From assembly GCA_017445115.1 (NCBI GenBank), contig JAFSUU010000021.1, positions 12,304-76,303 of the forward strand: DNA of 64,000 nucleotides, read 5' to 3'. The position numbers and the translations under genes are program-made. Source of the stretch: Clostridia bacterium. GTDB taxonomy: Bacteria > Bacillota_A > Clostridia > Oscillospirales > CAG-272. The notes below the pieces were generated by a model. That model saw only the letters and a list, made by a program, of their open reading frames with translations, ran no database searches and had not been told where the DNA came from. Positions 12,452 through 61,650 of the stretch are shown here, in pieces (position 1 is the stretch's first letter; the number at the start of each line of letters is the position of its first letter).

Positions 12452-12459
12452 CCGTGTTT

Positions 12460-12665
12460 TATATCTGCCTTGTGCGTGATGACTTGGCATTAAAACCCAC
12501 ATCATAAAATTGGAGCCCGCACCGTTTACGGGTATGCAGACCTCCCGCCTTCCGTCTCCTTTCGTGACACGGTTGCGCGGACGCTGGTAGCTCAAAGTCT
12601 ACGGATGGGCGCCGCCTTGCGTAAGCAGGGTTTGTATTGCGGAGTTACACGGCATGGCGGATATT
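12460..12665 (+). ncRNA. Structured non-coding RNA, candidate 6S RNA
   Basis: This segment has no plausible coding frame. The ends pair through ATATCTGCC (12461-12469) and GGCGGATAT (12656-12664), nine pairs with one G-U, then CGTG with CACG beyond an internal loop. Inside are TGATG/CATCA, CCCG/CGGG and a CCTTGC-GTAA-GCAGGG hairpin with a GNRA loop. A rod of about 205 nt closed by its ends fits 6S RNA in size and layout. The SRP GGAAGNAGC loop, RNase P core motifs and a tmRNA 3' end are not seen. The 6S label is inference. Confidence 0.5.
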
Positions 12666-12670
12666 CAAAT

Positions 12671-24075: not shown

Positions 24076-25344
24076 TTGGGCGGTATGCGCTCCAAGCTTG
24101 CCAACGTGTATAAAAAGTACGGCTTTTTCGGCTTTTTTAAAAAGCTGTGGGCGTACGGTAAGGCGAACTATATCGACCGCTTAAGCCCTTCGGTGTCGCT
24201 TCGCAAAGGTAAATATACACGAATGATCGAGAAGATCCTTGAGGACGAAGAATACGACAGAGTGATACTCTGGAGAAGCATCGTCGGCTACGATATGCCT
24301 CTTTTTCAGCGTCCTCAGCACATAGCAAACAATCTGACAAAGCAGGGCTGTCTCGTTTTCTACGAGGTCACGACGATGACTGACCGAGAAAAGAAACTGA
24401 AGCGCAGAAGCGACAGACTGTATCTCTTCAATTATACCAACGCCCCTCTGAACAAGATACTGATGAAGTGTCTTGAAAAAACCGACAAGCCGAAATATCT
24501 TCAGCTTTATTCGACCGACTGGAAGCTCTCCGTGGACGATGTGAAGGCGTATGAAAACGCGGGCTTCGGATTCATTTACGAATATATCGACCACATCAGC
24601 GCAGATATCGCCGGGACGAAAGAGCTTCCGAAAAACATTGCGGACAAATACGATTATGCGATGAAGGATCGCGATGCATTTATAGTCGCGACCGCCGATC
24701 TGCTTTATGAGGACGTCGTTTCAAAGAGAGGGACGGATCGTCTTGCGTTCTCTTCAAACGGAGTCGATTACTCGTTTTTCAAAACTTTTGAGGACGGCGT
24801 GAAGCCGGATAAAGAATTCCTCGATATCGTTGAAAAAGGGAAGCCTGTCGTTATGTATTACGGCGCGCTCGCAACGTGGTTCGACTACGATCTTCTAAAG
24901 AGCATCGCGTCGACCGGAAAATACAGCGCCGTTCTTATCGGAGTCAAGTATGACGGTTCGTTCGACGAATCAGGCGCAAAGGATCTTGACGACGTTTATT
25001 TCCTCGGATCGAGAAATTATAAAGTGCTCAAATATTACGCGGCGCTCGCCGACGTGCTGACGATACCTTTTAAGATCAACGACGTCACCCGCTCGACGAA
25101 CCCGGTAAAGCTCTTCGAGTATATGGCGCTTCAAAAGCCGATCGTGACGACAAATATGAACGAATGCCGGAAGTATAAATCCGTCCTTATCGGAGACGCG
25201 GGGGAATTTGAAAGAAAGCTCGACAAAGCTCTCTCTCTTCGCGATGACGCGGATTACCTCGGACTTCTCGACCGCGAGGCGAGAGAAAACGACTGGTCGC
25301 ACAAAGCCGAAGCGATCGTCTCGCTTCTCAAAAAATACGAATGA
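24076..25344 (+). CDS. GT-B glycosyltransferase, TuaH/family 1-4 like
   Basis: About 422 residues. The N-terminal half has the phrase MPLFQRPQHIANNLTKQGC, seen in TuaH-type transferases. The C-terminal half has the GT-B donor site VMYYGALATWFDYDLLKSIA, YFLGSRNYKVLKYYAALADV and STNPVKLFEYMALQKPIV, where a glutamate contacts the donor. Start is uncertain: AGGAAGG at 24061-24067 best fits TTG 24076, with GTG 24067 and ATG 24085 as alternatives. It is the last gene of the cluster; its stop lies in the stem of the 25337-25394 palindrome. Confidence 0.85.
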   Translation: MGGMRSKLANVYKKYGFFGFFKKLWAYGKANYIDRLSPSVSLRKGKYTRMIEKILEDEEYDRVILWRSIVGYDMPLFQRPQHIANNLTKQGCLVFYEVTTMTDREKKLKRRSDRLYLFNYTNAPLNKILMKCLEKTDKPKYLQLYSTDWKLSVDDVKAYENAGFGFIYEYIDHISADIAGTKELPKNIADKYDYAMKDRDAFIVATADLLYEDVVSKRGTDRLAFSSNGVDYSFFKTFEDGVKPDKEFLDIVEKGKPVVMYYGALATWFDYDLLKSIASTGKYSAVLIGVKYDGSFDESGAKDLDDVYFLGSRNYKVLKYYAALADVLTIPFKINDVTRSTNPVKLFEYMALQKPIVTTNMNECRKYKSVLIGDAGEFERKLDKALSLRDDADYLGLLDREARENDWSHKAEAIVSLLKKYE

Positions 25345-25394
25345 TCACAGCAAAAGACCGCAGAATACTGCGGTCTTTTGCTGTGATCATTCGT
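25337..25394. terminator. 27-bp perfect palindromic bidirectional terminator spanning both stop codons
   Basis: The arms at 25337-25363 and 25368-25394 are perfectly complementary around AATA. The inner part (AAAAGACCGCAG and its complement) is a classic two-way terminator. The outer part contains GAA-TGA of the plus-strand gene and, symmetrically, GAA-TGA of the minus-strand radical SAM gene, so both stop codons sit in opposite arms of one hairpin. Confidence 0.92.
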
Positions 25395-34871: not shown

Positions 34872-34899
34872 ACCTTTGCGGAATATATTTTCCGTAAAG
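34872..34899 (+). promoter_or_regulatory. Hairpin covering the ribosome site of the small lipoprotein gene
   Basis: CCTTTGCGGAA and TTCCGTAAAGG form an 11-bp stem (one G-U) around TATATT. The 3' arm includes AAAGG of the AAAGGAG ribosome site (34895-34901) for ATG 34909, so the fold would hide it. Confidence 0.55.
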
Positions 34900-34908
34900 G
34901 AGTATTGT

Positions 34909-35421
34909 ATGAAAAGAATTATCTGTATATTTCTGATCGCTTTCGCGCTTTGTATCCCGTCGTGCGGCGCGAAAGTGTCTCCTCTCGCTTATCAGCAGGG
35001 GATAGATTCCGCCGTATTCGAAATTGATTTTGACAAATCCTCGTTTACCGTTGAGCTTTTTCCGATGCAAAACCGGCTGAGAGTAATATCGCCGGACAGA
35101 ATAGAAGGGATCGAGCTTGCGATCGAGGACGGAGAATACCGCCTTATCTCAGAAGACGCGGAGTTTGAACTGCCGGATCCGCTCATTTCGCTCGTGTCGC
35201 CGATCTTCCGCGCGTTTTCACTCCCCGACGACAAAGCAAAGACTTCGACCTCCGGCGACGACGTCAGAGTGGTGAGGGTGTCATGCGACGACGGAGACTA
35301 TGAGATCCGCCTCTCGCCTGGCGGTGAACCGTCCGAAATCGCGTTCAAAGGAACGAGAGACTTTACGATGAAAGGGATCGAATTGAGGTATGGGGAGGAA
35401 AAAGAAACGATCGGGAAGTGA
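34909..35421 (+). CDS. Small predicted lipoprotein
   Basis: A 170-residue protein. The N-terminus MKRIICIFLIAFALCIPSC is a signal peptide with a lipobox-like IPSC, so it is probably lipidated at Cys19. The mature part is one beta-rich acidic domain (VFEIDFDKSSFTVELFPMQN, IELAIEDGEYRLISEDAEFE, ISLSPGGEP-like DYEIRLSPGGEP). No family is recognised. ATG 34909 fits AAAGGAG; the in-frame ATG at 34876 lies in the hairpin and has no site. It stands alone between the addAB operon and the hairpin array. Confidence 0.75.
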   Translation: MKRIICIFLIAFALCIPSCGAKVSPLAYQQGIDSAVFEIDFDKSSFTVELFPMQNRLRVISPDRIEGIELAIEDGEYRLISEDAEFELPDPLISLVSPIFRAFSLPDDKAKTSTSGDDVRVVRVSCDDGDYEIRLSPGGEPSEIAFKGTRDFTMKGIELRYGEEKETIGK

Positions 35422-35455: not shown

Positions 35456-35648
35456 AACATCATTTACGCCGTAGGCGTAACATCATTTGCACAGAGTGCA
35501 ACATCGTTTGTCCCGGATGGGCAACCTCGTTTTGTGTCCGGAATTAACGATTCGGTCTTTCGGCCGAACGGTGTTGACCGTGCGAAACGCGCGGTCAAAT
35601 GATGTTTGCGGCAAGCCGCAAAACGATGTTGTGTTCTGCGGACACAAA
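35456..35648. repeat. Array of seven small hairpins with ACATCATTT-type spacers
   Basis: Hairpins lie at 35464-35480, 35487-35501, 35508-35524, 35551-35568, 35574-35598 (11-bp stem), 35605-35622 and 35629-35647. The hairpin bodies differ. The linkers are near constant and read AACATCATTT or AACATCGTTT left of the centre (35456, 35479, 35500), and the reverse complement, AAATGATGTTT or AAACGATGTT, right of it (35597, 35621). The whole is thus a large inverted structure centred on the fourth hairpin. A degenerate unit fills 35525-35550. No coding frame is credible. Confidence 0.85.
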
Positions 35649-35652
35649 CACA

Positions 35653-35696
35653 CCAAAAAATATGGCTCGTCATTTGGCGAGCCATATTTTTTGGTG
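35653..35696. terminator. Strong bidirectional terminator after tRNA-Thr
   Basis: Arms starting CCAAAAAATATGGCTCG and the complement ending CCATATTTTTTGG form a stem of about 19 bp with one G-T pair and an ATTT loop. Read on the minus strand it follows the tRNA CCA end at once and ends in T6. Read on the plus strand it closes the hairpin array. Confidence 0.9.
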
Positions 35697-35770
35697 GAGC
35701 TACTACCGGGATTCGGACCCGGGACCTCGTCATTACCAATGACGTGCTCTGCCAACTGAGCCATAGTAGC
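35695..35770 (-). tRNA. tRNA-Thr (GGU anticodon)
   Basis: A 76-nt cloverleaf on the minus strand. The acceptor stem GCTACTA pairs with TAGTAGC. The D arm is GCTCAGTTGGCAGAGC, the anticodon stem-loop CGTCA-TTGGTAA-TGACG gives anticodon GGU, and the T arm has GGTTCGAATCC. The discriminator and CCA are encoded (TCCA). It has its own strong promoter and terminator, so it is expressed separately from dnaB. Confidence 0.97.
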
Positions 35771-61549: not shown

Positions 61550-61650
61550 GCGGGGAGGACTTTTTTCAAAAAAGTCCTCCCCGCGCCCCTTTCAAAAAAC
61601 TCCCCGCTCCCTTTTCAAAAACCTTTTTGAAAGGGGCTTTTTCTTTTTTG
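61550..61650 (+). terminator. Tandem double terminator after RNase J (two-hairpin repeat, copy 4)
   Basis: First stem: 17 perfect pairs, GCGGGGAGGACTTTTTT (61550-61566) with 61568-61584. Second stem: GCCCCTTTCAAAAA (61585-61598) with 61624-61637, 14 perfect pairs, followed by a long T-rich tail. The internal CCCTTTTCAAAAA could compete for the second right arm. Related to the repeats at 68, 13639 and 15329. Confidence 0.92.

Follow-up and report, generated by a model that had tools for sequence, protein, structure and literature searches.

REP and BIME elements are short dispersed palindromes that occur with a presumed cognate protein, RAYT (Y1), and integron cassettes (attC, IntI) are varying small genes next to folding DNA. 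In the accessible text of its original report, Gut-1 is a noncoding RNA found in human gut and environmental sequence only (Weinberg et al. 2010, PMC2864571). The available text on the Coxiella intervening sequence (IVS) describes IVSs as lying inside the 23S rRNA, having a terminal stem, being transcribed and being excised by RNase III; the Coxiella IVS, with its S23/bIVP protein, is called selfish there, and the function of the protein family is given as unknown (PMC4990558).

We analyzed a 64-kb stretch of DNA, hereafter the window, in which positions 35456–35648 hold seven near-perfect hairpins when read on the + strand (Table 1). The stems differ, and each carries TT at its 5' foot and AA at its 3' foot, as an earlier sequence-only reading had reported. 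Four of the seven contain one wobble pair each on this strand, and none contains an A-C pair. The hairpins are separated by linkers of 5–6 nucleotides, reading CATC(A/G)T in the left half and its reverse complement in the right half. The earlier description of near-identical linkers arranged in this manner is correct overall, although two of them are more degenerate than stated, and the view that the linker is constant while the stem is variable is supported, as is the complementarity of the two halves. Element X is exactly complementary to X', so that the outermost arm is able to pair either locally or over a long range. This second long-range pairing goes beyond those proposed earlier, in which the two halves pair across the fourth hairpin. 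That proposal is recovered in part by the RNA minimum-energy fold, where the left and right linkers are partly paired, but the outermost pair is an A-C mismatch.

Table 1. Features of the hairpin array and its neighborhood (window coordinates)
Feature	Position	Strand	Remarks
tRNA-Thr (GGT), anchor	35695–35770	-	its CCA end is followed by the terminator and the array
Terminator hairpin	35651–35696		22-nt arms, A-run and T-run, 95% complementary; between tRNA and array
Outermost hairpin	35629–35648 (hairpin proper 35629–35647)	-	adjoins terminator; includes X' = TTTGTGTCCG on - strand
Hairpin	35605–35622		sequence reading
Hairpin	35574–35598		one wobble pair on + strand
Hairpin	35551–35568		one wobble pair on + strand
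Hairpin	35508–35524		one wobble pair on + strand
Hairpin	35487–35501		sequence reading
Hairpin, distal array end	35464–35480		sequence reading
Inner element X	35531–35540		perfect 10-nt complement of X' (35639–35648)
Left-hand linkers	35458–35463, 35481–35486, 35502–35507, 35525–35530		CATCAT, CATCAT, CATCGT, CCTCGT (last one degenerate)
Right-hand linkers	35546–35551, 35569–35573, 35599–35604, 35623–35628		AACGAT, CGGTG (degenerate), ATGATG, ACGATG
Convergent 181-aa ORF	34876–35421	+	far side of array; no Pfam or NCBIfam match

The window array together with its terminator folded better than all of 200 dinucleotide shuffles (z about -8), as did the array without the terminator (200/200), with z values of -4.3 for RNA and -4.1 for DNA. 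All five exact matches to AACATCRTTT in the 64 kb are inside the array; with one mismatch allowed, 14 matches were found in the window against 10 expected, showing no window-wide enrichment. The array reached a crude 6-mer linker score of 7, a value shared by one other of the 579 window tiles in total. Thus, the window-internal linker score is not decisive, and the proof of the array rests on the comparison among relatives. Elsewhere in the window, a 6S RNA was matched at 12459–12667 with a score just over the gathering threshold, and perfect inverted repeats with arms of 17–27 nucleotides, perhaps terminators, were observed at 25337–25394, 91–124 and 61550–61584.

The nearest relative identified by the dnaB search was RUG14199, "uncultured Ruminococcus sp." (G001; 74% identity), a name that NCBI places within Clostridia and in which RUG denotes rumen genomes. 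A tRNA-Thr gene follows dnaB there too (L001), and the contig stops right at this place. Among 30 dnaB loci of relatives, the tRNA-Thr gene was kept in this genome only, and the search with the CATC-type pattern detected arrays within 1500 bases of dnaB in 0 of the 30. In the family of the nearest relative, however, a pattern of two linkers around a gap was present in 104 of 196 genomes. The hand count gave about 318 matches, as compared to 39 matches in 34 genomes for the reversed control pattern, so that some of the single matches are due to chance. The loci that were read contained true arrays at tRNA ends or gene ends, often adjoining terminators, with variable numbers of units; some genomes carried several of them. 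These loci support the earlier proposal of a class of elements with varying unit number and, in some relatives, several copies per genome; with arrays found outside the window, the claim was not refuted.

We aligned nine arrays of the window class, all in tRNA-first orientation. Both sides had changed in 17 of 39 stem pairs, a number not reached in any of 500 shuffles (mean 9.3), and sliding the partners gave at most seven such pairs; one helix in this alignment was misaligned in some rows (70% paired). The changes in the stems are thus compensatory. The outermost T-A pairs seldom varied, whereas the inner pairs were variable. Covariation within elements at the A/G position of the linker, judged by eye in a few arrays, was mixed and was not counted. 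Among 385 distinct inter-linker stretches, 291 formed a hairpin by the set criterion and 94 did not; the 291 stems contained 1597 Watson-Crick pairs, 18 G-T pairs and 9 A-C pairs. An RNA-strand bias was sought in these numbers, and the ratio of 18 to 9 was not decisive. Across all classes, X and X' were complementary over at least 8 nucleotides in 55 of 96 arrays, a length that the other 41 did not attain, compared with 0/96 when the outer segment was shuffled and 5 when any other hairpin arm was used.

The small ORFs beside several arrays belong to the family PF05635/TIGR02436, annotated as "23S rRNA-intervening sequence protein" or "four helix bundle protein" (bIVP), for which the structural match is a solved relative (PDB 2rld). 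Matches to PF05635 were present in 120 of the 196 genomes. We read 155 bIVP loci, 30 of them from 18 genomes chosen for having arrays or close kinship and 125 from among the matches listed in score order; at least nine matches of the score-ordered list, all partial or near contig ends, were left out. Loci without 480 nucleotides upstream (17/155) or without 300 nucleotides (10/155) were dropped from the respective counts. In its full form, the arrangement recurs in an order in which a tRNA gene (once a tmRNA) is followed by a terminator, the hairpin array, a promoter, the bIVP gene and a next gene that varies. A same-strand tRNA gene was located upstream in 78 of 138 loci, at a distance of 198–285 nucleotides from the ATG in 61 of the 78. 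Within the last 330 nucleotides before the bIVP gene, 96 of 145 loci have a paired-linker array with a score of at least 8; none of 4350 shuffles attained this score, and among 377 tiles taken from dnaB loci 2 did. Another 22 upstream regions scored 6–7 (a score of 6 was reached by 105 of the 4350 shuffles), and 27 had no paired linker. Only a few bases separate the tRNA from the start of the module: in 58 of 60 tRNA-anchored arrays, the tRNA is followed by a stem with a minimum length of 10 bp, which in 56 begins 0–2 nucleotides past it. A promoter was recognized in 55 of the 96 arrays (2/96 after shuffling); for 40 of these 55, the -35 box lies at -2 to +8 nucleotides from the last linker.

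The arrangement did not extend to a phylum-wide sample of bIVP loci, of which 25 of the 30 returned were tested: a score of at least 8 was found in 0/25, a score of 6 in 2/25 and a tRNA gene within 900 bases in 0/25. It was also absent from three plasmid loci (Monoglobus, Treponema and Nostoc), a subset of 25 plasmid records with a bIVP match. Conversely, arrays were present in three genomes in which no PF05635 match was detected (G025, G168, G078). Variants of the upstream region and of the gene were also observed. Two human fecal records filed as phage (MT835815.1 and MT835590.1; L336, L337) each contained an array and a bIVP gene, located behind tRNA-Arg in MT835815 and with no tRNA nearby in MT835590. 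The bIVP frame of L160/L048 (G161) is lengthened by about 55 codons through an in-frame insert and stays open. In L069 (G037), an array after tRNA-Met precedes an ORF whose first five codons resemble a bIVP start, as if the bIVP gene had been deleted. Seven loci (L148, L151, L146, L153, L321, L325, L329), most of them behind tRNA genes, show another kind of upstream region, with long inverted repeats of TTCACTATTC-like words instead of hairpin arrays; where a bIVP was seen, these repeats precede bIVPs of another clade.

Measured against this arrangement, the window locus shows the tRNA, the terminator and the paired-linker hairpin array in the expected order, but no bIVP gene follows the array. 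No bIVP gene was found anywhere in the 64-kb window by tblastn with five bIVP queries (best E 0.18). The window copy is thus a solo array without a bIVP of its own, yet it aligns with a class that has bIVPs of its own, as at tRNA-Gln in L139 (G071) and tRNA-Cys in L258 (G072).

The linker word varies among modules (ATGATG, GTGAAG, GTGATA, TGAAAT, AGTTAT, GCTAAA and others), and the word in the right half is the reverse complement of that in the left. The linker was common to 98.7% of 79 bIVP pairs with at least 90% identity and to 4.1% of 2205 pairs with 50–60% identity. Among nearest neighbors from other genomes with less than 80% identity, it was shared in 60 of 92 cases (permuted mean 11.8, maximum 30). 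For the protein comparison, 4 of the 96 arrays were left out because the protein was shorter than 95 amino acids, and the remaining 92 proteins were placed on a FastTree phylogeny with linker classes grouped by single linkage. The linker words follow the bIVP clade, with 18 class changes on the tree compared to a mean of 61.5 and a minimum of 55 in 300 shuffles. The anchor tRNA changed 39 times among 59 rows (300 shuffles: mean 44.2, minimum 39); since 39 equals the lowest of the shuffles, the tRNA anchor keeps at most a weak signal. It is certain that linker and bIVP belong together while the tRNA anchor is exchanged. As protein and array travel together, the agreement between linker and clade alone is no proof of recognition; it would also arise if the entire block had been inherited together.

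The next genes were selected by script in 54 loci. In 17 of these, a four-base overlap was present between the bIVP stop codon and the beginning of the following gene, and 9 had no same-strand ORF within 260 bases. A Pfam match at E 0.001 was obtained for 9 of 20 next genes and none for the other 11; the families were DUF218, DUF4279, WapI-like, pyrophosphatase, nucleotidyltransferase (twice), histidine phosphatase (twice) and GNAT (below its cut-off). A comparison of 10 proteins with anti-phage families in PADLOC gave no match for bIVP and weak or partial matches for two next-gene proteins. Related next genes were found behind different bIVP classes with different linkers, in one pair with 64% identity and bIVPs 53% identical, and in a second pair with 68% identity and bIVPs 56% identical over 79 residues. 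Tandem module units were present in L138/L161 and L176/L265. In the pairs examined, modules at different tRNAs were homologous from the 3' part of the tRNA to about the end of the bIVP gene.

The occupants of one tRNA locus were compared at 14 tRNA-Gln loci (L324 and L331–L335 were left out). Four of the 14 have a flanking gene in common, with matches that cover two thirds or most of the query. Different array classes occupy this shared locus in three genomes: the ATGATG class with a bIVP gene in G161, the window class in G348, with no bIVP within the available 619 bases, and the GTGAAAT class in G347. For the fourth (G345), only 10 bases past the tRNA were available, and these match the native downstream sequence of G352. 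The other ten match over the tRNA and about 50–80 further bases or less; eight of them have an array or a long inverted repeat, and G351, where the match is confined to the tRNA and the adjacent upstream sequence, has neither in 330 bases. Directly after the CCA, 11 of the 14 loci carry one of six kinds of array or long inverted repeat. G345 and G351 could at most tentatively be taken as empty tRNA-Gln sites.

At L322 (G352), the 3' end of tRNA-Gln is present twice, with a short terminator-bearing insert in between and the native downstream sequence after the second copy. This was the one case of a tRNA-end repeat at the far border, which was not a rule in the 28 loci; as a candidate far border, a copy of the anchoring tRNA end performed no better in these loci than other tRNAs. 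A T-arm-like right-end motif was also discarded, since 853,262 bases contained it at no more than 4 distinct places. In eight loci (L034, L035, L065, L069, L136, L137, L138, L200), similar stretches of about 55 nucleotides were observed downstream of the next gene and before the following terminator, in several cases containing two direct half-repeats of the ACACCTTTTnnnTCGTTT kind and mostly ending in GCA or ACA exactly at the start of that terminator; they represent a candidate cassette border. Two enzyme families were considered as movers. Y1_Tnp was above its cut-off in 9 of 20 array genomes and below it in 11, including the array-rich G113, and the integron integrase (TIGR02249) was above its cut-off in 0 of 25 relatives. 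General tyrosine recombinases were present in the 25 genomes, as in 14/14 control genomes.

Based on these comparisons, we consider it probable, at roughly 0.6, that the window array represents, as a solo copy, the cis-acting component of a module that occurs in a family of Clostridia and is mobile or exchanged horizontally. The best reading of the array itself is a DNA site that would fold and be recognized by the bIVP of the module. From the sequences we infer both this recognition and the movement of the module: the bIVP would bind the repeated linkers, which the folded stems may present as cruciform or single-stranded DNA, and binding would label the module so that it is maintained or transferred. 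The window array and other solo arrays would then be non-autonomous relatives that depend on a bIVP elsewhere, or leftovers. We only tentatively extend this to a new mobile gene-cassette system, in which each family of bIVPs would read its own linker word on a DNA array that folds by itself, and small genes would thereby spread from one tRNA end to another. Several observations run against the best reading: of 145 bIVP upstream regions, 27 lack a paired linker and a further 22 reach no more than 6–7; 94 of 385 stretches form no hairpin; some genomes with arrays gave no PF05635 match; the tRNA anchor retains some order on the tree (39 being the lowest of 300 shuffles); a tRNA-end repeat at the far border is not the rule; the window copy lacks a bIVP; and neither of the two enzyme families accounts for movement. 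The alternatives discussed below overlap in their odds with one another and with the best reading.

The most serious alternative, possible in our view though not favored, is a static regulatory or insulating block that is inherited vertically, where the array reinforces the terminator or acts as an operator for bIVP autoregulation and exchange occurs by homologous recombination between tRNA loci. The location of the array between terminator and promoter, with the -35 box adjoining the last linker, is consistent with such a block, as are the homology blocks that stop at gene borders in the pairs examined and the weak signal of the anchor tRNA on the tree. However, the same anchor changes 39 times among 59 rows, related next genes stand behind bIVPs that are only 53–56% identical and have different linkers, and different array classes occur at one tRNA locus.

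A different alternative arises from the resemblance of one array class to Gut-1 (RF01706). The gathering score of 50 bits was reached in 10/10 loci of the GTGAAAT/TGAAAT class, where Gut-1 matches one half of the array at 50–70 bits, in L143, where the array follows a tmRNA, and also in two human fecal records. None of five other-class loci (of 16 loci tested) was above the threshold, and the window array gave no match up to E = 5. Other Rfam families tried as the identity of the array remained below threshold. Gut-1 thus appears to be half of one module array class. Accordingly, the array could be a structured noncoding RNA like Gut-1, transcribed as an sRNA or 3' UTR, and the compensatory stem changes, the four wobble pairs that the window array shows on its + strand, where no A-C pair occurs, and the convergent window ORF, from which transcription could run through the array, would fit with this. 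We nevertheless regard it as unlikely. Each half of the array is matched by Gut-1 in 4 of the 11 passing loci (L138, L143, L156, L261), with the two matches on opposite strands, which is what an inverted DNA array would give. Furthermore, with a terminator before the array (58/60 tRNA-anchored arrays) and a promoter after it (55/96), the array should be mostly untranscribed in the modules, and wobbles are rare and not clearly one-sided over the 291 stems, which together favor a role at the DNA level. The earlier suggestion of a protein-binding RNA scaffold therefore stands in part: a protein-binding site is plausible, whereas the RNA form is less likely because of this position between terminator and promoter. 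The tRNA with its terminator, the bIVP and next genes of relatives and the connection with Gut-1 were beyond the stretch described by the earlier reading. Finally, functionless selfish hairpins perfected by template-switch correction of palindromes would account for the very few non-Watson-Crick pairs, but are very improbable since the constant linker words and their reversal between halves, the X/X' pairing and the order of tRNA, promoter and bIVP would all be left unexplained.

In the open-access literature, a full-text search assessed by titles and the starts of abstracts returned no description of bIVP modules. For the bIVP family, the modules offer a candidate partner in cis, a putative recognition word in many natural variants, and a pairing that can be tested. 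If the cassette reading is true, an orphan protein family gains a role and Gut-1 becomes half of a DNA site, so that a catalogued RNA family would be reclassified. The modules may also explain why some draft contigs break off just after a tRNA gene, and small genes may move among gut bacteria by this route.

How the array and the module compare with described systems can be summarized as follows. The array resembles CRISPR in its regularly spaced repeats, but the roles of repeat and variable part are swapped and the linkers reverse in mid-array; the best CRISPR family match of the window array was 16.7 bits, with 45 needed. With Gut-1 it shares hairpins with variable stems (three in the Rfam consensus) and constant linkers (GUGAAAU), although the bIVP, the tRNA anchor, the second half and the other linkers receive no mention in the accessible text of the Gut-1 paper (PMC2864571). 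The 23S rRNA IVSs have in common with the module the protein family (PF05635, TIGR02436) and a structured element at a stable-RNA gene. The module, however, is located behind a tRNA and has many hairpins, its own promoter and a varying next gene; the window array is not an IVS of this kind, as it lies between tRNA-Thr and a protein ORF, and no rRNA match was found in the 64-kb window. As in REP/BIME, short dispersed palindromes occur with a presumed cognate protein, but it is the linker and not the palindrome that is constant, and the partner is a bIVP and not a Y1 transposase. The module is similar to integron cassettes in having varying small genes next to folding DNA, with some units in tandem, and differs from them in that its units bring their own promoter and terminator.
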